Positions 13,304 through 52,885 of a stretch of DNA of 64,000 bases are shown one piece after another. Position 1 is the first letter of the stretch; each line of letters begins with the position of its first letter. Below the pieces are notes generated by a model that was given only the letters and a program-made list of their open reading frames with translations, was not told the origin of the DNA and did no database searches. A program made the translations under genes and the position numbers. The DNA is from Linnemannia hyalina. Lineage: Eukaryota > Mortierellomycota > Mortierellomycetes > Mortierellales > Mortierellaceae. Location: contig JAHRHY010000004.1 in NCBI GenBank assembly GCA_019671135.1, positions 682,001 through 746,000 of the forward strand. The letters run 5' to 3'.

Positions 13304-14939
13304 GTACCAAGTCATCAAGAAAAAGAACAAAACAAAAACATTCCCTGTACATATGTTCCTACATCCCCCCCCCCCCCTCCTTAGATAAATAAACAACAGT
13401 AAATTAATAGAACATTCGTTAATCGTTCCTTGTTTTCGTTTGACTGAATGGTACGTGCTGAGAGAGAGGCACCATGATCCCATGCATGTCAAAAAATTGA
13501 GCCATCGCTCGTCAAAAGCCCGCTGTGAAAAAGAATCATTGCATCGTCAGCATGAGAGAACAAAAAACAAAGGACTGAATCTTTCTAATGAACCGATCCA
13601 CAAAACTATAAGTTTAGTATGGTTATCCATTTTAAACGCGCAAATGTCATAACTATTGTTACCCTCTCATTCTATGAAAAGAAACCTCGCCCATTATGGT
13701 GTCAACAAAACCTCCCCCTCCCCCTTTCTCCTACTTGCTTGTTGTATTGCACACTTTGCAACCATCGCCCTAGGACGCTGCCAACCCCGCTGCCCCAATG
13801 ACTCCCCAATCTACGAAATCGTTAGCCTTTCGCCCAAAGAGGTCGTTTGCTCCCCTGCAGCGAAAAATTGAATCAACCTCCTATCAGTTCAGTCTGATCA
13901 CCATGGCTCTCTTTCTCACCTCAGTCACCGATCAAAACCACCTCCCTCCTTTCCGTTTTTTTCTCAATCAACAATCATTCGCTCTCCACCAACACATACG
14001 AGAGTGCGTTTTCGGAACATATCCCTGCACATCGCCCGGCTAGGTTCTTGCGACCCAGGGTCAACGGCCTTGTCAGGGTCCTGATCCAATCCTCTCCTGC
14101 AGCGGTAATATTCTGGGCTTCGACTATATCCTTATGCATCCATCTACCACATTCAGGACGAAAGGATATTTTGAATGTCGCTGATATTCAGTTTTGATGT
14201 GCCATAGTCAGATTGAATGTCCTCCTGTCTGGCCCATAGCATGCCCTAAATCCGCTGACCTTGACCGACCTTGATCCTCCTAGACTTTAGTTCCTCCATT
14301 TTTTGGCGAGAGGCAAATACAGGCAGGTAAAGCGATTGTCTGCTCACGACCAGATTCTTGTCCTCCAAGGCAGGAGGGAGGATACTATTGTTTGATGCAG
14401 GGGCGTCGGGTTGATCTTGATGCCCAGGATTATCACACATGGCCGTATTGGTGGCGACTGAAGTGGGGCAGGCCTGCAGTCCCACATAACGCCATCGTGT
14501 TGGCCTCACTGAGGTCAATCAGACATATATTTTCTCGATGGATGAAACGCCAAAATTCGTCCAGGATCGACTGTAGTGCTGGGAATCGGGTTTCGATACG
14601 GAATGGAGACAAAGGCGGTTTTGCTCCGGGTAGGGCTTGGTGGCATGAAAATATGTGGCATGGGGCTCCTTGCCGTTGGTCGAATACAGGTTGTTGAACT
14701 CGAAATTGTTGAGGGTATAGGGTCGGATCCTGTGGGAGGAGAGTTGTCAGCAGAGGAAGGGAACCATTGTACAAGTGAAAGATAGTTGGATCGAAGACGG
14801 TCGGATGATTTTATTGACGAGAGCTTCCAAGGTTGTTGACCGTCTCCGTATGACATCTGCCAGGTCGAAAATGATTCTTGCTATCCTCCGGTTCTCCGTC
14901 GTTTCAACGAGTGTAGATGCCTCCTTGGTAGTCATGAGC
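13304..14939. other. intergenic or unresolved region
   Basis: Contains a C homopolymer near 13364. Several minus-strand open frames lie between 14246 and 14992. They have near-normal composition and might be exons of a degraded or multi-exon gene continuing from 15350, but I could not join them with consistent splice phase and recognise no domain. Confidence 0.4.
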
Positions 14940-15350
14940 TTAACAGCAGTAGCAGCGGATGGGTTGGGGTTCTTCTTTCCCGTCGACCACAAGATAGGTG
15001 CAGAGCACGCTCCTCAAATGTGATAAATGGATCGGTGAACTGATGTTGAAGGCTGAATAAGGTCGTATAGCCGGTGGAAGGCGCCCGGCCTCTGTCCACC
15101 AGTAGGAATCGTCGTCATCCTCGTCCTCATCCTCGTCGTGATCGCTATGGTAATCCCTTTCCTCCTCTGTAGTCTCTTTTTCTCCTCCAACAGTCTGGGA
15201 TCCCGCCTGCTCCGTTAATGATCCAGGATGTACGTTGTGTAAAGAGGTACTTTGATATGACCTTAGTACACACACTGAGGCAAGCTGGACTGCATTTGAC
15301 CCCTTGGACACGAATAAGTGGGACATACGCGTTTTCAGTATCAATGACAT
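14940..15350 (-). CDS. hypothetical protein with an acidic stretch, gene model uncertain
   Basis: An open frame of 136 codons with an Asp/Glu-rich run (DHDEDEDEDDDD) at about residues 70-81, then a less biased C-terminus (WWTEAGRLPPAIRPYSAFN). It could be the first exon of a gene whose later exons are among the frames at 14246-14992. No family is recognised. It lies just left of the giant palindrome, in an area where the local gene order may have been disturbed. A promoter-like TATAAA near 15387 points the other way and does not serve it. Confidence 0.3.
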   Translation of the reverse strand: MSLILKTRMSHLFVSKGSNAVQLASVCVLRSYQSTSLHNVHPGSLTEQAGSQTVGGEKETTEEERDYHSDHDEDEDEDDDDSYWWTEAGRLPPAIRPYSAFNISSPIHLSHLRSVLCTYLVVDGKEEPQPIRCYCC

Positions 15351-15385
15351 GACGGAAAAGCATTGTCACTCACCAGAACAGACAG

Positions 15386-15702
15386 GTATAAACCTCCACT
15401 CTCTCCCCCAACTTGTCTCTTCTTTCTTTTTGTATTTTCTCTCTTAACTTCCTCCATTCCCTCTAACTTTCCTCCTTTCTTTTCTCTCTTTCGTTCTTTC
15501 TTGTTTCTTGTCCTACCCTCTCATGCCTCGATCTTCGAGCGGGTCAAGGCCCTCCACACCCATCTACACATCCAACACTCGACTCATCGTCATGGAACAC
15601 GGCATCCTCAACAACCAACCAACCCCCACAGCACAATCGTGACCAATCCACCCCGCCTATCACTTGTAACGAGTTCGAGACAAGGAAGAGAGAGAAGAAA
15701 TG
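15386..15702 (+). promoter_or_regulatory. orphan promoter and leader cut off by the palindrome
   Basis: A TATAAA element near 15387 is followed by ~150 bases of strongly pyrimidine-rich sequence, the usual leader of genes in this window, and then a short coding-like stretch that ends at the palindrome edge (15703). No intact gene follows, so this looks like the 5' end of a gene separated from its body. Confidence 0.45.
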
Positions 15703-16599
15703 GCGAAGAGATGAGCAGACGAGCACAAACGAGGCCACGAAAAACAAATACTAGAGAGCATGTCTTTTTAATAACGAAAATTAACTATGAAGGAAGGAAG
15801 TTGGTCATGAGTGATGTTTGGTATTTTTAATGTGGTGGTTGCATTCAGCTAGACGCTATGAACAAAAAGAAGTAAAAAAACAGGCAAAAGAAGCAAAGAA
15901 CAAACAAAAAAAGAAGCAAGGAACAAAAAAAAAAAAAAAAAAAAAAAAAAAAAGCAGGGAGCAAACAAAAAAAAGAAGAGAAGAGCAGAGAACAAAAAAA
16001 AAGGGCAAGCTCTCAGTTGCCTACAATGCCTCATAATGCCATAAAAAAAGAAAGTTCGCATTGCGCGGGGGCCTCAGACTTTGTGCTGGTCTTATCATAG
16101 GCATAGCGCCTCAGATTTGGTGCAAGTGCCATTATAGGCATAGCGCCTAAGACTTGCTGCAAGTATCATCATAGGCATATAGCCTCTCCCATCCTAAAAA
16201 AAAGAAGACATGCAATGACACAGAGATTAGCACCCCCATTACGTCTTCCTCCAACAGCATATGTCAGTGCTGGGAGGGCCAGACGCCCCCAAGGCGACCA
16301 CCATGCCGGCGCACCCACTCCCTTGACACGGCCAAGCACACGGCCACCCATGCCAAGTCGGGATTGCGGACACTTAGGTATGAGGGGGAGGGAGGTCGTG
16401 ACTCCTCTTGACCCCTTCCTGATAGCCTCTTGTCACTAAAGTGATACGACGATAAGTTTTGTAATTAGTAAAACGTTCGCGCCACCAAAATTATGTCTCG
16501 AGAAAAATATAACCACACCCACGATCTTTCCAGTTGTCTGAAGGGAAGGGAAGGGAAGGGAATGGAATTGAGGTTTTTATCTTACCAGGTGTCGGTTTA

Positions 16600-17155
16600 C
16601 ACGGCAGGGGCGGGTGCAAGGAGGGCATGACTTCCTCCTAACACCCTTTCATCTTGGCTAGGGCGGGTGCCAGGAGGGTCTCATTTCCTCCTAACACCCC
16701 TTCATCCTAGCAGGGGCGGGTGCCAGGAGGGGCTCAATCCCTCCTAACACCCTTTCATCTCGGCTGGGGCGGGTGCAAGGAGGGCGTTAATTCCTCCTAG
16801 CACCCTTTCATCTTGACTGGGGCGGGTGCAAGGGGGGCCTCAATTCCCCCTAGCACCCTTTCATCTTGACTGGGGAGGGTGCAAGGAGGGGTCTTATTCC
16901 TCCTAACACCTTTCATCCCGCAGGGGGAGGGTGTAAGGAGGAGCAACGCTCGACTCTACTTACACCCCTTCATCTCGGCAGGGGCGGGTGTAAGGAGGAG
17001 CAACGCTCGACTCTACTTACACCCCTTCATCTCGGCAGGGGCGGGTGTAAGGAGGAGCACCGCTCGACTCTACTTACACCCTTTCATCTCGGCAAGGGGA
17101 GGGTGTAAGGAGGAGCACCGCTCGACTCTACTTACAACCTCTCTCCTTGGTGGAC
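16600..17155. repeat. hairpin-unit minisatellite, left arm
   Basis: About ten tandem units of 53-57 bp. Each unit is itself a small inverted repeat (one half reads GGGTGTAAGGAGG-like, the other CCTTACACCC-like) followed by a linker resembling TTTCATCTCGGC-GGGGC. The 57-bp class with the TCGACTCTAC core is present in one more copy here than in the right arm. Confidence 0.9.
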
Positions 17156-18088
17156 CCAGGCATGAGGGTGAGGAAGGGATGAATTCCTCCTTGCACCCTC
17201 TCTTGCCCTAAAGCGAAACGGATGACAATAAATAAATCTCTGACGATTAGTAAATAGTATACACCTAACCATGATAACACAATCACTCAAGGACAAAGGG
17301 GCGGGAGAGCGTGGGAACTGAGAACCGTGGAGTTGTGTAAAGACGTAAGGAAGTAGGAGAGCGTAGGAACTGGAAACCGTCCGTGGAGTTGTGTAAAGAA
17401 CGTAAGGAAGGAGGTAGGAGAGCGTGGGAACTGAAAACCGTCTGTGGAGTTGTGCAAAGAAGGGGAAGAAAGAACTTAAAAGGCAGCACGAACGCAACAC
17501 TCACCCCCACAAACAAACAAAGACAAGGAAGGAACAAACGAAAGCAAGCCAAACGCGCAACCCATACGCGATAACTCAAAAGAGAAAGAAGCCGGAGAGC
17601 GTGGAAACTGGGAAACGACGAGGAGAGCTTAAAGAACGCAAGGAACAAGATAAGCAGCGCGGACGCAAACGCTCACCGCAGAAAAAGGCGAAGAAGGAAC
17701 AAAAAGAAAGCAGGACTTGTGCTGCAGCACAGAAACTCGAAGAAGGAAGGAAGAAGCTAGGACAAAACAACGCACACGCGCACTCAACAACGAGAAACAA
17801 CGAAGAAAGGAAAGTAGGACGGGAAAGAAAGTGTGGGAGAGGAGATACAACGAGAAACAGATACACACACCCTAGTTCGTTTCTGTTTTTTAGAAAGGAA
17901 GGGGAGGGAAGGGGAAGGAAGGGAAAGGAAAGAGAGGAAAGGGAAGGGAGGAAAGGAAGGTGAGTTTCTTACCAGGCCAGCGGCGGTTTCCAGACGGTAG
18001 AGGTGGGTGACAAGAGGAGGGGCCAAAGAGGAGTGAAGAAGAAAAGAGAAGAAAAGAAAAAACAACAGTTTTGGCCGGAGAGATTGCC

Positions 18089-18095
18089 TTTTATA
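18089..18095 (-). promoter_or_regulatory. outward-facing TATA box, left arm of palindrome
   Basis: TATAAAA on the minus strand. It is preceded by two adjacent CACGTG boxes and an ATGAC-GCA-GTCAT bZIP-type site, and followed by a pyrimidine-rich leader in the outward direction. It is the exact mirror of the right-arm element. Confidence 0.6.
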
Positions 18096-18557
18096 CCACG
18101 TGGCACGTGCAAGCAAATATGACTGCGTCATTTTGGGTGGCAAAGAGCAAGGGCGAGTGCGTGTGTAACTAGAGGGGTGGTTGACAGGGCTCTCAAAAAG
18201 GAAGTATACTTAAAGGCTTACCATGCATTATCGGATATTCTCGCCTCTCTAAACGCAGGACCTTCTATCATGGACTCCATTGAGCACCAACCACCCTTTC
18301 TCTGGCTCTTGTTTCATTTGTCATACATTGCCTCTCTCCGCACCTCTTCTTTCCCTATCTTCATGCCTCTTCTGTCCTTCTCCAAGCAAAGGGTGGTTGC
18401 ATGGTCAATGGAGTCCATGATAGAAGGTCCTGCGTTTAGAGAGGCGAGAATATCCGATAATGCATGGTAAGCCTTTAAGTATACTTCCTTTTTGAGAGCC
18501 CTGTCAACCACCCCTCTAGTTACACACGCACTCGCCCTTGCTCTTTGCCACCCAAAA

Positions 18558-18599
18558 TGACGCAGTCATATTTGCTTGCACGTGCCACGTGGTATAAAA
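18558..18599 (+). promoter_or_regulatory. outward-facing promoter core, right arm of palindrome
   Basis: Contains ATGACGCAGTCAT (18558-18570), CACGTG at 18579-18584 and 18586-18591, and TATAAAA at 18593-18599, then a pyrimidine-rich leader and a GTAAGA donor-like site near 18716. Because the left arm has the same set in mirror image, both arms would yield transcripts of the same sequence moving away from the centre. Confidence 0.6.
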
Positions 18600-19484
18600 G
18601 GCAATCTCTCCGGCCAAAACTGTTGTTTTTTCTTTTCTTCTCTTTTCTTCTTCACTCCTCTTTGGCCCCTCCTCTTGTCACCCACCTCTACCGTCTGGAA
18701 ACCGCCGCTGGCCTGGTAAGAAACTCACCTTCCTTTCCTCCCTTCCCTTTCCTCTCTTTCCTTTCCCTTCCTTCCCCTTCCCTCCCCTTCCTTTCTAAAA
18801 AACAGAAACGAACTAGGGTGTGTGTATCTGTTTCTCGTTGTATCTCCTCTCCCACACTTTCTTTCCCGTCCTACTTTCCTTTCTTCGTTGTTTCTCGTTG
18901 TTGAGTGCGCGTGTGCGTTGTTTTGTCCTAGCTTCTTCCTTCCTTCTTCGAGTTTCTGTGCTGCAGCACAAGTCCTGCTTTCTTTTTGTTCCTTCTTCGC
19001 CTTTTTCTGCGGTGAGCGTTTGCGTCCGCGCTGCTTATCTTGTTCCTTGCGTTCTTTAAGCTCTCCTCGTCGTTTCCCAGTTTCCACGCTCTCCGGCTTC
19101 TTTCTCTTTTGAGTTATCGCGTATGGGTTGCGCGTTTGGCTTGCTTTCGTTTGTTCCTTCCTTGTCTTTGTTTGTTTGTGGGGGTGAGTGTTGCGTTCGT
19201 GCTGCCTTTTAAGTTCTTTCTTCCCCTTCTTTGCACAACTCCACAGACGGTTTTCAGTTCCCACGCTCTCCTACCTCCTTCCTTACGTTCTTTACACAAC
19301 TCCACGGACGGTTTCCAGTTCCTACGCTCTCCTACTTCCTTACGTCTTTACACAACTCCACGGTTCTCAGTTCCCACGCTCTCCCGCCCCTTTGTCCTTG
19401 AGTGATTGTGTTATCATGGTTAGGTGTATACTATTTACTAATCGTCAGAGATTTATTTATTGTCATCCGTTTCGCTTTAGGGCA

Positions 19485-20035
19485 AGAGAGGGTGCAAGGA
19501 GGAATTCATCCCTTCCTCACCCTCATGCCTGGGTCCACCAAGGAGAGAGGTTGTAAGTAGAGTCGAGCGGTGCTCCTCCTTACACCCTCCCCTTGCCGAG
19601 ATGAAAGGGTGTAAGTAGAGTCGAGCGGTGCTCCTCCTTACACCCGCCCCTGCCGAGATGAAGGGGTGTAAGTAGAGTCGAGCGTTGCTCCTCCTTACAC
19701 CCTCCCCCTGCGGGATGAAAGGTGTTAGGAGGAATAAGACCCCTCCTTGCACCCTCCCCAGTCAAGATGAAAGGGTGCTAGGGGGAATTGAGGCCCCCCT
19801 TGCACCCGCCCCAGTCAAGATGAAAGGGTGCTAGGAGGAATTAACGCCCTCCTTGCACCCGCCCCAGCCGAGATGAAAGGGTGTTAGGAGGGATTGAGCC
19901 CCTCCTGGCACCCGCCCCTGCTAGGATGAAGGGGTGTTAGGAGGAAATGAGACCCTCCTGGCACCCGCCCTAGCCAAGATGAAAGGGTGTTAGGAGGAAG
20001 TCATGCCCTCCTTGCACCCGCCCCTGCCGTGTAAA
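19485..20035. repeat. hairpin-unit minisatellite, right arm
   Basis: Mirror copy of the left-arm minisatellite, lacking one 57-bp unit. Unit sequence drifts gradually along the array, with GTGTAAG units innermost and GTGCTAGG/GTGTTAGG units outward, as expected from local unit duplication. Confidence 0.9.
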
Positions 20036-20992
20036 CCGACACCTGGTAAGATAAAAACCTCAATTCCATTCCCTTCCCTTCCCTTCCCTTCAGACAACTG
20101 GAAAGATCGTGGGTGTGGTTATATTTTTCTCGAGACATAATTTTGGTGGCGCGAACGTTTTACTAATTACAAAACTTATCGTCGTATCACTTTAGTGACA
20201 AGAGGCTATCAGGAAGGGGTCAAGAGGAGTCACGACCTCCCTCCCCCTCATACCTAAGTGTCCGCAATCCCGACTTGGCATGGGTGGCCGTGTGCTTGGC
20301 CGTGTCAAGGGAGTGGGTGCGCCGGCATGGTGGTCGCCTTGGGGGCGTCTGGCCCTCCCAGCACTGACATATGCTGTTGGAGGAAGACGTAATGGGGGTG
20401 CTAATCTCTGTGTCATTGCATGTCTTCTTTTTTTTAGGATGGGAGAGGCTATATGCCTATGATGATACTTGCAGCAAGTCTTAGGCGCTATGCCTATAAT
20501 GGCACTTGCACCAAATCTGAGGCGCTATGCCTATGATAAGACCAGCACAAAGTCTGAGGCCCCCGCGCAATGCGAACTTTCTTTTTTTATGGCATTATGA
20601 GGCATTGTAGGCAACTGAGAGCTTGCCCTTTTTTTTTGTTCTCTGCTCTTCTCTTCTTTTTTTTGTTTGCTCCCTGCTTTTTTTTTTTTTTTTTTTTTTT
20701 TTTTTTGTTCCTTGCTTCTTTTTTTGTTTGTTCTTTGCTTCTTTTGCCTGTTTTTTTACTTCTTTTTGTTCATAGCGTCTAGCTGAATGCAACCACCACA
20801 TTAAAAATACCAAACATCACTCATGACCAACTTCCTTCCTTCATAGTTAATTTTCGTTATTAAAAAGACATGCTCTCTAGTATTTGTTTTTCGTGGCCTC
20901 GTTTGTGCTCGTCTGCTCATCTCTTCGCAGCTAAAAAAAACCATACGTGTCTTGGGTACCAGAGTTTAAGGACCTCCGATTGAACATACATA

Positions 20993-21567
20993 ATGGATGC
21001 TGTTATTTCGTGGTTGGCCGAATGCAAACGATTTACACTCGTGAGGTTATTGGAGCAAGAGCTCGAAGAGGCAGTCACCGGTAAGATGTTGTTTGTTTCA
21101 TAACATGTTTGTTTTTGCTTTCGTCTTCGCCCTGAATTGATTTTTCGAACCAATGTCTCTTCCCCCCTCTAAATTCATTCTCCTATTCTCTATCGTCACG
21201 CATTCTACCCTACCTAGACCACTACACATTGGCACAGCGCTACACGCCGCAGGTAGGCTGCGCTGGAAGCTATTATAGAACTGGTAGCACCTGTGGGTAT
21301 AGTGTCTTCGTCGTCTGTAATTATGATCCCGCCAGCAATATACTAGGTGAACATCCATACGTCTCATCAAGCCCCGGCTCTCCCTTTTGTAATCAGGCTC
21401 TCCCTGTTAACAAAGCCCAGTCAAAAAAAATGCAAAACATTAGATATCGTCGCCTCCCCTCCTCTCTATTTCTTCAACTTGACCGGTACAGCAAGTTTTT
21501 TACAAGGCTTGTTTCTGAGTATGGCAAGTCCCTCTCTCCTCCCCTCACTCGCCTCAAGCAGCAGTAA
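20993..21567 (+). pseudogene. 3' fragment of a CAP/SCP/PR-1 family gene
   Basis: Two exons, 20993-21080 and 21218-21567, join in phase across a GTAAG-TAG intron. The product contains SWLAE, DHYTLAQRYTPQVGC, and VFVVCNYDP..NILGEHPY. These match the C-terminal half of the CAP (cysteine-rich secretory, antigen 5, PR-1) domain, where the usual motifs are SW..E, H[YF]TQ.VW and CNY.P.GN..G..PY. Missing are the signal peptide and the first half of the domain with its first metal-binding His and Glu. An in-frame stop lies just upstream (about 20978) and the palindrome ends 65 bases away. Full-length CAP proteins are secreted and bind sterols or act as effectors. This copy looks inactivated, perhaps by the rearrangement that placed the palindrome here. 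Confidence 0.7.
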
Positions 21568-22011
21568 TAGTCCTGAAATCCCCGACCCCGATCTCTCTCC
21601 CTTTCCTTCCTCCCTCGCCTTTCCTCTTCCCTCGAGAATACAGAACTTGAACTCAACCTTTCTTCAGTGCCAATTCAATTACAGCTCGCCTTTTCAGTAA
21701 ACCTAGACCTTGTCCATCTGCATCCCCATCTTTTGTTTTTCGTTTTGTACTGTTTGTCGAGTGTTATCTCCTGATCAAATCGTTACGTTTATTAGTTTGG
21801 AAACGAGGATTTTTCACCTTTGTCTATCGATCATTTCATTCAGGAACAGTCAAAGTCGGTGCATGCGAGTGCGCCGAAAGCGTATTGTTGTTGAAATACA
21901 AAGACGTCAACTTGCGCACTTCATCTACAACCAAACACACGTATACAACCAAAAAAAAAGGGGGAAACGTTAGCAAGCCTCATAAAAATCACACGCCATG
22001 CCACCTTATAA
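21568..22011. other. intergenic between CAP fragment and CCZ1
   Basis: A second plus-strand frame overlaps the CAP fragment end (to 21700) with Ser/Pro-rich composition, but it has no independent support. Nothing else is recognisable. It holds the convergent 3' ends of the two flanking genes. Confidence 0.5.
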
Positions 22012-24325
22012 TCAATACCTAAACGCCCCCTTGCAACGCATACCTTCCACTTCAACAAGGGTACTATCCTTGCGGGAGACAATCATATACACCTCCCGAT
22101 CCTCAAACCGTTTCCCAACAATCCAATAATTCGATGGCGACCGTGTCGTAATCTCGGTCGCATCCGGCATCCGATCAAAATCTTGCCTGATATCCAACAA
22201 CGACATTGCAACCTCCGATCCCAACATCAATGCCCCCGAACTACTGCCTATTCCCGAGCCCTTCCCAACTCCCGATATTGTTCCCAACTGCGTCTTGATC
22301 GCCAAGTTCATCCGATTGAAATACAAGAACCGGATCTCCTTGTCGTTGGCGATTGTACCTCCGAGCCCACGTGCTGTCATCGCGTCCTTGACCACCTGGC
22401 GAGCTACATCCTCCAGAAGTGATCGACTCGTCTCGCCGTTGCCGCTCGTTGGGTCCAGTAATGGCGCATCGTGAACAAGACCTGAGACGAATTCTTCCAT
22501 TTCCCGCATGAACGACTCCTGATCCTCTAGTATCATGTTCCCCTCCTTGTCCAACGTTGGTACAAAGAAGCATAGGTTAAGTCCGCTCTTGTGCTAAAAA
22601 GTCGGAAAAAAAAAGGAAACAATAACGCAATGGTCAATAAAAGTGCCGTCATCTCTGGTATGTGCAAAGGTGACGCATGTAATTGAAGCCTACCTTGAGG
22701 GTGATACCGATGTGCTCATCCACATCCTCACTGGCGATAAACTCTCCAAACCACAGTGGATTCGCTTGCGCTTTCACGCCACTGGTCAGTCCTGCCTCTG
22801 ATTCTCCTGAGGCCCGAGGACTGGCTCCAGATCCCAAAGCTCCTGACAATGCGTTTCCAGTATTCACACCGTCAATGCTGCGAATAGAAGGTGCAGGTGA
22901 ACCGACACGAGATGTAGGTCTGAGCGGTGGTGTCGAGGGCGGTGTTGATGCAGACGACGAAGACTTGTAGAATCCGAAAATACTCGTGTTCGACCATGAC
23001 TTGCCAAACTTGAACGTTGAGGTCTATTTTCATCCATGAGCCAAAAAAAAAAACTATAAATAACCAGTATACTCTTCACGATATCCTGGCAAGCAGTCAT
23101 TTCAAGATGAACAGGACCTACCTTGCTCTTGCGTCCAGCTTCACTCCGGTCAAGGGCAGAGTTCTGAGCACTAGCACCATCAAACCCAGAAGTTTGCACA
23201 ACCTGCTTCCACACAGCCCTCAAATCTTCATCCCTCACATCACTCGACACCAACTGGTCCTCAAAAGTCACCATCGAATGTGTCACCACCGGTCCTGCTC
23301 CGTTTGACCGATAATTCTCCTTGACAGCCTGGAGCAACCGATCAACGCTTAAATAACTCGTCCGACTCAATGGCAAGTATTGAATCCCGTCCAGCGCCTT
23401 TTCAAGACTCATCGTCGTCCGGTCAAACTCCCAACCCAGAACCCATGATTCGAAAAACTCTTCCAATCGTCGTTGCAAAGGGCGAGTGTTGCCCTCATGC
23501 GCATGGACAAGGCTCTCCATGGTTCCGTGGGTGACCCTGAACATTGCATAGGCTTGGCGTAAGAGCGCAGAGACGACTGTGTCGTGGACTTCGTGCTCAA
23601 GGTACTCTGTGATCACCCTAGGTTTCCCGTCCGTGCCTTTGACCGTCCTCTTTGCCGTGCCCAATTCGATCGACTACATGCAGCAAGAAAGAAAAAAAAA
23701 AAGACAGAGTAGATGAGTGTTTGTTCTGATGAAGCTCAATAATTACGTCCGCTGTGAAATAGCTTTGTTTTGTCAGGGCCGTTCTTTTACCAAGTTCAGC
23801 CAGTATCCTGGTTCTGCCTCATAAAACACCAACCGGTTCTTTTGAGAGTGCACATTCTCACACGGCACCGTAGGCGAGAATATCCTAAATCCAAAAAAAG
23901 ACAACAAAAGATCAAATCAGTAAGAAAAACCAACGATCCATTCCCAACGAACGTTCGCCTCCAAACCTCACGCCACAAGCGCAACCCGTCACGTCCCCCC
24001 CTCCCTCCCTTCCAACAAAATCGTCTCCTTGCAAAAAACTTTACCGAGCAAAGTTAACAAGCCCCTGGGCCAGTCCAATATTCCGCATCTTGGCGTCAAT
24101 AGAAACCGTCTTTCGGGCAACATAATACAACAGCTGCTCGTGCTGTGTCTCGTCTGTGGGACCAAAGTCTGGGTTGTAGATACAAAAGTAGTTCAGCGAT
24201 GCTGGGGTTATGGTGAGTCCATTTCCTGATGATGTTGAGGAGGGTGATGTAGCTGAAGAGGTTGTTGCTCCTGCGGCGCCGGTGGGCGGTGAGGAGGAGG
24301 CGGCAGCGGCTGATGAGCTGTACAT
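22012..24325 (-). CDS. CCZ1: vacuolar fusion protein CCZ1 (Mon1-Ccz1 Rab7 exchange factor subunit)
   Basis: Five exons, 24325-24045, 23884-23791, 23673-23122, 23023-22694 and 22593-22012, give 612 residues. After a Ser/Ala/Thr-rich leader the protein shows the CCZ1 first longin domain (NYFCIYNPDFGPTDETQHEQLLYYVARK, IGLAQGLVNFAR). Internal homology continues through VPCENVHSQKNRLVFYEAEPGYWLNL. The C-terminal longin region ends with NYWIVGKRFEDREVYMIVSRKDSTLVEVE. A Ser/Pro-rich low-complexity insert sits at about residues 320-400. Ccz1 pairs with Mon1 to exchange GDP for GTP on Ypt7/Rab7 at late endosomes and vacuoles, which drives fusion and autophagosome delivery. The length is within the range of fungal Ccz1. 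All exon phases are consistent, so the model is reliable; the true start could differ by a few residues. Confidence 0.93.
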
Positions 24326-50023: not shown

Positions 50024-52885
50024 ATGGAGGGTACTCAATCGTTTCGCTTGATCGAAACCATGGATACCATGGAAATCACTCTCAACCATGTGGACGGACA
50101 GAACATCGTTTATTGGGAGGACATTGAGCAAGTCTTTCCTGGAGTTAAGCGGGTTAGCAATGGCTATTCGGTGATCAAGTTTCTTCGGGGTTCCGATCAA
50201 GGGTAATAAGGAAACGTAAAAATGATTTGAGACGAATGGTCTTGACGAGCAAACATCTCATCATACTGTTCTCTTCCTTTCTGAATCATGCCATATAGCA
50301 CCCTGGATGTTGTCTTGTCTACCTCTGTCCAACCTGTTCTTGCCAACCCTGCTAAGTTTGATCCAGTCGGTGGTGAAACTAACACTCCACCCGGAACTCC
50401 AGTTAATAACAAAGTCGCTGTTGCTTTCAAGGCTACCCCACCAATACCAGAGATACCCGTCAGCGACATTGGTCTTCTCGAGACACCACCAAGCCCATCG
50501 TCTACCACCGACGCTGCTTCCAAGGTGACATTGTTCCAGCAGATTGTGACACGCGCATCTAGGAAGGCACGCGAATCTGAGGTCGAGCAGCGATTTATCT
50601 CCCTATTGGCCCCTGAAGTCCAAGAAATAGTTCGAGCCTCGTCGGACATCTACCAGTCGTTTGCCAAGGCTATCAAGTACGACAATGGGGGGCTCAGTCG
50701 AGCAGAGCTTAGGCAAGAACTAGGGGGACACTTTCAGAAGCTGGAGGCTATGGTGGTCAAGAACTTAGAGTTACAGGAAGCATTGAAGCAGCTACAGGAG
50801 TAAGTCCTCAGCAACCAAGAAGAGATGAAGCAACTCCAGCAGCGAGCTCTTGATCAGTTAGCCGTGCTCCAGTCTCGTGTGCAAGCCGTCCTAACTCAGA
50901 CCTACGAACTCCACGAGTACCCGATCCCTCGTCTTTTCGTTGTCCTTCCTCAAGACCCTTCAGGTTGGGATGCCGTAAATCCATTCTCGAACAAGTTCCG
51001 TCTCTACTTTCTATGCGAGTGCGGAGAACACACCAAGTCGATCGACTGCAAGACCGAGATCTCTCATGATATCCACTTTGCTAAACATGAAGGCTACGAG
51101 ATCGCTCGGCCTTCAGAGTTCTTTCAGCAATACGGCCCCTATGTCCTCACTATCCTCAAGATGCTCAAGTTCGGTGTTTCGGTTGCCGGAGTGGCTGTAC
51201 CAGCTATCTCTCATCTGGTCAAATCGGACGCCATCGATCAAGCCACTGCCGGTATACAACAGTTGAGGGACAACATTGAGCCTGGAATGGATCATCTCAT
51301 AGGCTGGATGGACAAGGTCTCTGTGAATGAAGGCGAGGCTGTTGACGAGTTTTCTAAGCAGATGGAGAAGAAGGAGGCATTGGAAGGCGCCGATCTACGC
51401 AAGCTCGACACCTTTCTGAAGGACATGGACGGCAATAAGGTGTTGGGGAACCTGTACAGGACCGTTACGGACGAGGGACATGTCAAATGGGTTTGCATTG
51501 ACCACTACCGCATGAACTATCTAGAAAACTCGGCCAAGGAGTTCCTGCGCGTGTTAGATTCCGTCGGAGGATCGTTTAGTGAAAACGTCGGTAGGGTTGA
51601 CGTGAGACTCCAGTCGAGAGCGTTGGCAGGACATTTCTTTTCAGCACTGGGAAAGGCGAGATCTGTCTACGAGCTCGATATTGGCTTGCACTGGGCCTGT
51701 ACTACAAGTGATCTTGAAGCACTGGAGGATGCGCTCAAGAAATCAAGAGTATCAATTCTTCGACTGGATCTTCAACAATTTCGGACGAGCGTCGTCAGGA
51801 AACTACTATCGACATCCACACCATATGACGTCATTTCCCGCATCAGAGATCTTCCTAATATGAAAGTACTTCATATTCTTCTTTCAAAGGAGCTCGTCAA
51901 CTTCCTTGGATTTCCACCCAAAAAATCAACTCATGTTTGTAAGATGTCCTGCGAACTGGCATCTACATTAATTGGAGGAAGGGAGTTTGGAATACTAGCT
52001 GAGGCACTCAAGACCAACTCGACCCTGACCACTTTGGACTTGGGGGGCAACTCGATCGGATTCGACGGAGCCAAGGCGCTGGCTGAGGCACTCAAGACCA
52101 ACTCGACCCTGGCCACTTTGCACCTGTGGAATAACTCGATCGGATCCGACGGAGCCAAGGCGCTGGCTGAGGCACTCAAGACCAACTCGACCCTGACCAC
52201 TTTGGACTTGGGGAATAACTCGATCGGATCCGACGGAGCCAAGGCGCTGGCTGAGGCACTCAAGACCAACTCGACCCTGACCACTTTGGGCTTGGGGAAT
52301 AACTCGATCGGATCCGACGGAGCCAAGGCGCTGGCTGAGGCACTCAAGACCAACTCGACCCTGACCACTTTGGACTTGGGGGGCAACTCGATCGGATTCG
52401 ACGGAGCCAAGGCGCTGGCTGAGGCACTCAAGACCAACTCGACCCTGGCCACTTTGCACCTGTGGAATAACTCGATCGGATCCGACGGAGCCAAGGCGCT
52501 GGCTGAGGCACTCAAGACCAACTCGACCCTGACCACTTTGGACTTGAAGTACAACTCGATCGGATCCGACGGAGCCAAGGCGCTGGCTGAGGCACTCAAG
52601 ACCAACTCGACCCTGACCACTTTGCACCTGTGGAATAACTCGATCGGATCCGACGGAGCCAAGGCGCTGGCTGAGGCACTCAAGACCAACTCGACCCTGG
52701 CCACTTTGGACTTGAAGTACAACTCGATCGGATCCGACGGAGCCAAGGCGCTGGCTGAGGCACTCAAGACCAACTCGACCCTGGCCACTTTGGACTTGAA
52801 GGACAACTCGATCGGATCCGACGGAGCCAAGGCGCTGGCTGAGGCACGCAAGACCAACTCGACCCTGACCACTTTGGGCTTGTAG
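50024..52885 (+). pseudogene. receptor-like protein with C-terminal RNI-type LRRs, interrupted by an in-frame stop
   Basis: Exon 1 50024-50202 and exon 2 50299-52885 would give ~921 codons. The N-terminus (METITLNH-like: MEITLNHVDGQNIVYWEDIEQVFPGVK) resembles a domain I associate with large receptor-like gene families of Mortierella and Rhizophagus. A Pro/Thr linker and a helical region follow (FQQIVTRASRKARESEVEQRF). At 50801-50803 the frame meets TAA, then resumes in the same frame with a coiled coil (MKQLQQRALDQLAVLQSRV) and a conserved-looking central domain (PIPRLFVVLPQD, YFLCECGEH, HDIHFAKHEGYEI). From 51998 it ends in ten 28-residue leucine-rich repeats of the ribonuclease-inhibitor/NLRC type (GAKALAEALKTNSTLTTLDL) plus a partial eleventh. 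Without the upstream part, 50825-52885 alone could encode 686 residues. No nucleotide-binding domain is seen. Confidence 0.75.
51998..52885 (+). repeat. 84-bp tandem LRR-coding repeats
   Basis: Ten complete units and one partial, in register at 84 bp, nearly identical in DNA including synonymous sites. Variation is concentrated at the two to four codons before NSIG (GG, WN, GN, KY, KD). Units 1-2 and 5-6 share the same variants (GGNSIGFD then HLWNNSIGSD), pointing to a duplication of a four-unit, 336-bp block. Confidence 0.95.

Follow-up and report, generated by a model that had tools for sequence, protein, structure and literature searches.

Structure of the palindrome on contig C33

Examination of a 64-kb window (C33:682001-746000, the whole stretch of DNA analysed) from one 51.5-Mb, 50-contig assembly of Linnemannia hyalina confirmed the presence of a near-perfect 5.2-kb palindrome at positions 15703-20928, with arms of about 2.5 kb located where the original prediction, made from the letters of the sequence, had placed them. 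Self-alignment delimits the following elements, the strand of each arm being that of its outward reading:

15703-18286 (-): left arm, 2584 bp
18287-18401 (no strand): spacer, 115 bp, homologous in the other four palindromes described below and in single-arm copies
18402-20928 (+): right arm, 2527 bp
16929-16985: 57-bp unit carried by the left arm only, resembling the adjoining unit
18284, G, versus the complement at 18404: sole base mismatch between the arms, with the identical left/right difference in the related palindrome L021

The uninterrupted length of the spacer is 115 bp and not 121 bp, and the mirror symmetry extends imperfectly about 25 bp into its edges. Inverted matches pair 15703-17041 with 19590-20928 at 100% and 16966-18286 with 18402-19722 at 99%. 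Exact alignment of the two arms gives 2526 matches, one mismatch and one 57-bp gap; the 57-bp unit is therefore not the single difference that it had been taken for. Units of the GCAACG type occur twice in succession in the left arm and once in the right, and the extra left-arm unit resembles a duplicate of the adjacent one. Each arm has tandem arrays built of units of 53, 57 and 61 bp, and an A/T run 29 bases long, the latter in agreement with the equal homopolymer lengths first noticed. At such a length and identity, a chance origin of the palindrome is not a serious option.

A family of related palindromes in the genome

A search with the left arm returned at least 92 matching pieces in its own genome (35 candidates scored). 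Twenty matching stretches were examined, among which at least four further palindromes with the same centre and spacer were found, a count that is a minimum:

L021, C33:599654-605056: nearest relative, 98 kb from the window palindrome
L022, C12:317588-325100
L023, C11:428445-435778
L024, C11, about 805800-810740: arms far less similar

L025, L026, L027, L028 and L029 have an arm that is single or truncated, and others of the stretches hold fragments. Dispersed copies lie on at least C33, C11 and C12, and fragments occur on additional contigs. The spacer was recovered, whole or in part, in eight of the 20 stretches; in four single-arm places it always stands on the same side of the arm, which is its side in the right arm. 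Beyond the spacer, L028 and L029 keep a short remnant resembling a second arm, and at least those two "single" copies therefore look like decayed palindromes. The outer ends of the arms differ from copy to copy.

Contig C33 also carries another inverted repeat, 99.5% identical, formed by C33:441500-447833 and C33:455393-461721 (L025 1-6334; L026 3993-9900 with L056 1-421). Its two halves lie about 7.6 kb apart and each contains one palindrome arm. Its length of at least 6.3 kb is a lower bound, the sequence examined starting at 441500, inside the repeat.

Arm identity within and between loci

Within loci, the arms differ at 1 of 2527 sites in the window (1 gap), 4 of 2639 in L021 (1 gap), 15 of 3551 in L022 (6 gaps) and 21 of 3515 in L023 (8 gaps), that is, an identity by substitution of 99.4-99.96% in four of the five palindromes. 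Between these same four loci, in contrast, substitution differences reach 4.9-13.3%, values that are low estimates, many gaps having been set aside. In four of the five palindromes, L024 being the exception, the arms of one locus resemble each other far more than they resemble those of other loci of the same descent, and this agrees with the "actively homogenised" option of the original prediction.

The distribution of the differences was analysed by site class, leaving aside L024, whose arms represent two lineages. Gap-free columns of the window and L021 comprise 161 locus-specific sites, one side-specific site, which is the third column from the spacer, and no crossed site. Comparison of L022 with L023 gave 312 locus-specific, no side-specific and no crossed sites, together with 10 side-specific gap columns, all among the last 21 columns. 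For the remaining pairs, locus-specific sites number 458 (window-L022), 617 (window-L023), 472 (L021-L022) and 597 (L021-L023), and side-specific sites 0, 0, 2 and 0, respectively; both of the L021-L022 sites lie at most 30 columns from the spacer.

A maximum-likelihood tree of 14 arms (the inner 1.05-1.16 kb of each, 13 different sequences) pairs the arms by locus for the window (100/100), L021 (100/100), L023 (100/99) and L022 (99/98), and places the two arms of L024 in different clades. Topologies forcing left arms together were rejected, with p-AU of 2.3e-17 for window/L021 and 1.8e-91 for L022/L023, both tests having been run after the tree was known.

Spacer-edge asymmetry and exchange between loci

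In L021, L022, L023 and L024, the left arm lacks, beside the spacer, 9-10 bases that are carried by the right arm; the left arm of the window palindrome has them too, so that the left/right difference is lost there. The simplest account would be that all copies descend from one palindrome bearing this asymmetry, and that the conversion tract in the window ran nearer the centre. By its common spacer and the spacer-edge asymmetry, inherited from one ancestor, the palindrome predates the divergence of its copies, and the near-identity of the arms consequently records repeated homogenisation.

Compared with L023, the left arm of L024 shows 34 differences in 2056 sites, and the right arm of L024 groups with L025/L026 in the tree. 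The switch between lineages falls between about 4840 and 5040 of L024, inside the right arm. By these affinities L024 is a mosaic of two lineages, which indicates that ectopic recombination has taken place among these sequences and that one of its products is a palindrome with unlike arms. Next to its right arm, L022 has 68 bp that match the left flank of L024; this could reflect a flipped spacer, and loss from one L022 arm explains the match equally well.

Proposed origin and rival explanations

Because the arms pair by locus, trees joining left with left are rejected and the centre is common, the window palindrome is very probably a member of an old family whose arms have since been homogenised by arm-to-arm gene conversion. 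A single ancestral palindrome, with the present spacer at its centre, would have been copied elsewhere via segmental duplication or ectopic exchange, and the arms of each of four copies would afterwards have been homogenised with each other. Gene conversion is the most likely physical process: damage to one arm would presumably be mended on the template of its partner beyond the short spacer. Assuming a balance between conversion and mutation, the 0.04-0.6% by which the arms of a locus differ would correspond, as an estimate, to a per-site conversion rate about 170-2500 times that of mutation.

Several observations weigh against this scheme. The arms of L024 differ at 256 of 2054 sites, with 73 gaps, and are not homogenised, so that conversion may not act everywhere or may not yet have reached that copy. 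Array lengths differ between the arms of L022 and L023, with gaps up to 130 bp. Between the window and L021, the arms differ by 5.7% (under a scoring other than that of the between-locus comparison above), the shared flank by 12% and the spacer at 2 of 115 positions; that arms and spacer are closer than the flank may point to additional exchange between loci or to rates that are unequal.

The original prediction had also pointed to a likeness with foldback transposons. Under this explanation the copies would be non-autonomous elements born with identical arms at transposition, arm identity dating the insertion. The general look of the element fits, with long terminal inverted arms containing internal tandem repeats and copies dispersed over at least three contigs and, as fragments, more. 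L023 has, close to its ends, a direct repeat of 9 bp that is not flush, the one observation that favours insertion. The ends themselves do not fit. The check for target-site duplications covered four of the five palindromes (window, L021, L022 and L023) and found no flush duplication in any of them, no direct repeat of at least 5 bp occurring within 25 bp of the ends in the window and L022 and one of 5 bp in L021. Instead of fixed ends in different flanks, the ends vary, and 1.57 kb of flank is common to the window and L021. The left/right asymmetry inherited beside the spacer would be erased by re-copying a whole arm at each move. No transposase domain was detected in 20 hand-picked open reading frames (ORFs), most around the loci (no whole-genome scan), and the earlier remark that no protein or target-site duplication is seen holds at the window locus as far as tested. 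The foldback transposon Tetris of Drosophila virilis resembles the present family by its long inverted arms, internal tandem repeats, copy-dependent array length and the fact that no coding capacity was found (PMC4079207); complete Tetris copies, however, have 8-9-bp target duplications (PMC4079207), in contrast to the missing flush duplications, unfixed ends and shared flank observed here. We consider a foldback origin unlikely.

An assembly or polishing product, through fold-back reads or through two unlike arms forced into one consensus, might be suspected from the near-perfect arms, their equal homopolymers and the fold-back artefacts that occur in long reads (PMC12870357). Such a product is very improbable in view of the spacer, of the 57-bp unit specific to one arm, of outer flanks that differ, of a lone arm mismatch found again in L021, and of a family of related palindromes with their own arm lengths and differences, including L024, whose arms were kept apart at 12%. 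A recent inverted duplication, with arms identical merely through youth, would account for the single mismatch among 2527 aligned sites and for the equal 29-base runs, but this option is contradicted by a centre and a residual asymmetry common to palindromes whose arms have diverged by about 5-13%, and it appears the least credible of all.

The kilobase inverted repeats of Candida tropicalis centromeres, likewise fungal and homogenised, were also considered; they occur once per chromosome around a core of about 3 kb (PMC7292649). An inverted-repeat centromere was rejected by number and spacer size, with two palindromes on C33, two on C11 and a spacer of 115 bp.

Possible content of the arms

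The following putative motifs (TATA box, splice consensus and branch site) were recognised in the arms:

18586-18601 (+), outward: promoter-like block CACGTGGTATAAAAGG of the right arm, with TATA motif
18087-18102 (-), outward: promoter-like block CACGTGGTATAAAAGG of the left arm, mirror of 18586-18601
18716-18721 (+): first 5' splice-like site, CTG/GTAAGA
19436-19480 (+): branch-like TACTAAT with the first 3' splice-like site, whose AG ends at 19480; 7 of 9 arms have the exact motif
19482-20042 (+): tandem hairpin array of 57- and 53-bp units, predicted exon 2; fold z -9.3
20046-20051 (+): second 5' splice-like site; exact motif in 6 of 9 arms
20161-20195 (+): branch-like site with the second 3' splice-like site, whose AG ends at 20195; 7 of 9 arms have the exact motif

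The motif TATAAAAGG is present in every one of the 16 arms or arm fragments aligned, an exact search recovering it in 13 of 14 sequences, and all 16 also carry a GTAAGA donor-like site after the promoter-like block. In L021R the exact motif is missing at both acceptors and at the second donor, and the alignment shows the second acceptor with an altered branch site. The inner, promoter-like part of the arm occurs without the remainder in L029, L030 and L031, with a downstream reading-frame start identical in all three.

The units of the array are inverted repeats, and the array folds far better than shuffled sequence in the window, L023, L028 and L024 (z -9.3, -6.7, -7.3 and -9.9, respectively). 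Predicted intron 1 folds no better than its shuffled versions (z +1.3, 20 shuffles), and the same applies to the following exon-like block (z +0.4). Such scores reveal real hairpins and do not distinguish an RNA from a DNA function. Covariation in the 53-bp hairpin was not significant, 1 of 14 pairs being changed on both sides, in 2 of 20 units, a result equalled by 182 of 500 shuffles.

The right arm contains eight ATG-initiated ORFs of at least 40 amino acids, some intact in relatives. Protein-coding arms are unlikely and were rejected, the sense and antisense ORFs of the best conserved block being kept alike and distant copies showing frame-breaking gaps. A search of Rfam gave no match in the window at the gathering score; at a looser threshold, mir-641 appeared at two mirror places with 28.2 bits against a gathering score of 100, and was taken as a chance match on hairpin units. 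No tRNA was found in an ARAGORN scan (bacterial code). Among the 20 chosen ORFs, Pfam identified WD40 in two and weaker or ordinary domains in a few.

Tentatively, each arm may be a promoter-driven, spliced non-coding RNA gene with a hairpin array, the two forming a divergent pair, although the balance tilts against it. More doubtful still is the fuller proposal of a fungal counterpart, off the sex chromosome, of the Y-type palindrome, with twin outward spliced non-coding RNA genes whose hairpin-array exon would be kept paired and identical by fold-back conversion. If true, the palindrome would be a self-repairing two-copy locus.

Flanks and outer repeat

Three elements border the palindrome:

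14130-15702 (1.57 kb): left flank common to the window and L021, 12% substitutions
15276-15830 (+): dispersed outer repeat, extending across the boundary of the left arm at 15703; the right arm breaks off within this repeat
20929-23300: right flank, for which a genome search gave one match, itself

Since the right flank matches only itself, the right arm appears to end by truncation or rearrangement inside the outer repeat, which lies in opposite orientation in L022, L023 and the left side of L024. This repeat, found in many other places, has a TATA-like start, a CT-rich stretch and an AATAAA-like end, and its copies are mostly 63-86% alike. A query with 13400-15702 returned at least 58 matching pieces in the genome (40 of 48 candidates scored), and left-flank matches at C5:1611742-1612342, C23:2626097-2626697 and C1:305294-305894, near-equal in score and extent, suggest a recently spread repeat. 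Interpretation of the outer repeat as a protein gene was dropped, a frame being apparent in some copies and looking broken in others when the alignment was read by eye. WD40-repeat ORFs adjoin two copies of the outer repeat (L035 1-2079; L036 3370-6000).

To the right of the palindrome, ORF 22867-23673 (-) has 11 database matches, of which the only named one is the vacuolar fusion protein CCZ1 from Modicella reniformis, 65% identical across 69% of the query; judged by this one gene, the genome probably belongs to the Mortierellaceae, the family of Modicella. Farther away, window positions 50825-52885 (+) encode a predicted 686-amino acid leucine-rich-repeat protein, the 3' part of which (51998-52882) consists of 10.5 tandem 84-bp units, 93% matching.

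Comparison with known systems and significance

Large palindromes are usually treated as unstable or as a speciality of sex chromosomes. In human Y palindromes such as P6, also long and near-identical in their inverted arms, an arm identity above 99.9% is attributed to gene conversion, which was shown in a pedigree of 378 Y chromosomes (PMC3723533). Those palindromes are sex-chromosomal, with larger arms and conversion demonstrated by pedigree (PMC3723533), whereas the present ones lie on fungal contigs and their conversion is deduced from sequence only. The inverted-repeat gene pairs of Caenorhabditis (Zhao et al. 2007), whose arms are alike within a locus and unlike between orthologues or copies, offer another parallel. 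Conversion has been proposed for these pairs, which are reported to duplicate as one entity (PMC1803023). They share with the L. hyalina family divergent units, a spacer that is short (126 bp in one case) and a structure that outlives its sequence (PMC1803023), and differ in that their arms are protein-coding paralogues tested between species (PMC1803023), whereas no coding arm was found here and the copies reside in one genome.

Among the open-licence papers listed in literature searches, none reported that dispersed palindromes of Mortierella or its relatives undergo arm-to-arm conversion. The present family adds a new variation to these known systems: its palindromes are dispersed over one fungal genome, share a single descent and are apparently non-coding, which permits a test of concerted evolution inside that genome. 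Our findings suggest that the mirror structure outlives its sequence, the left/right history of the arms being erased to within 20-30 columns of the spacer, which keeps the record of common descent. If confirmed, this family would provide a compact fungal system in which naturally occurring markers next to the spacer allow palindrome conversion and spacer inversion to be measured, and a handle on why large palindromes persist.

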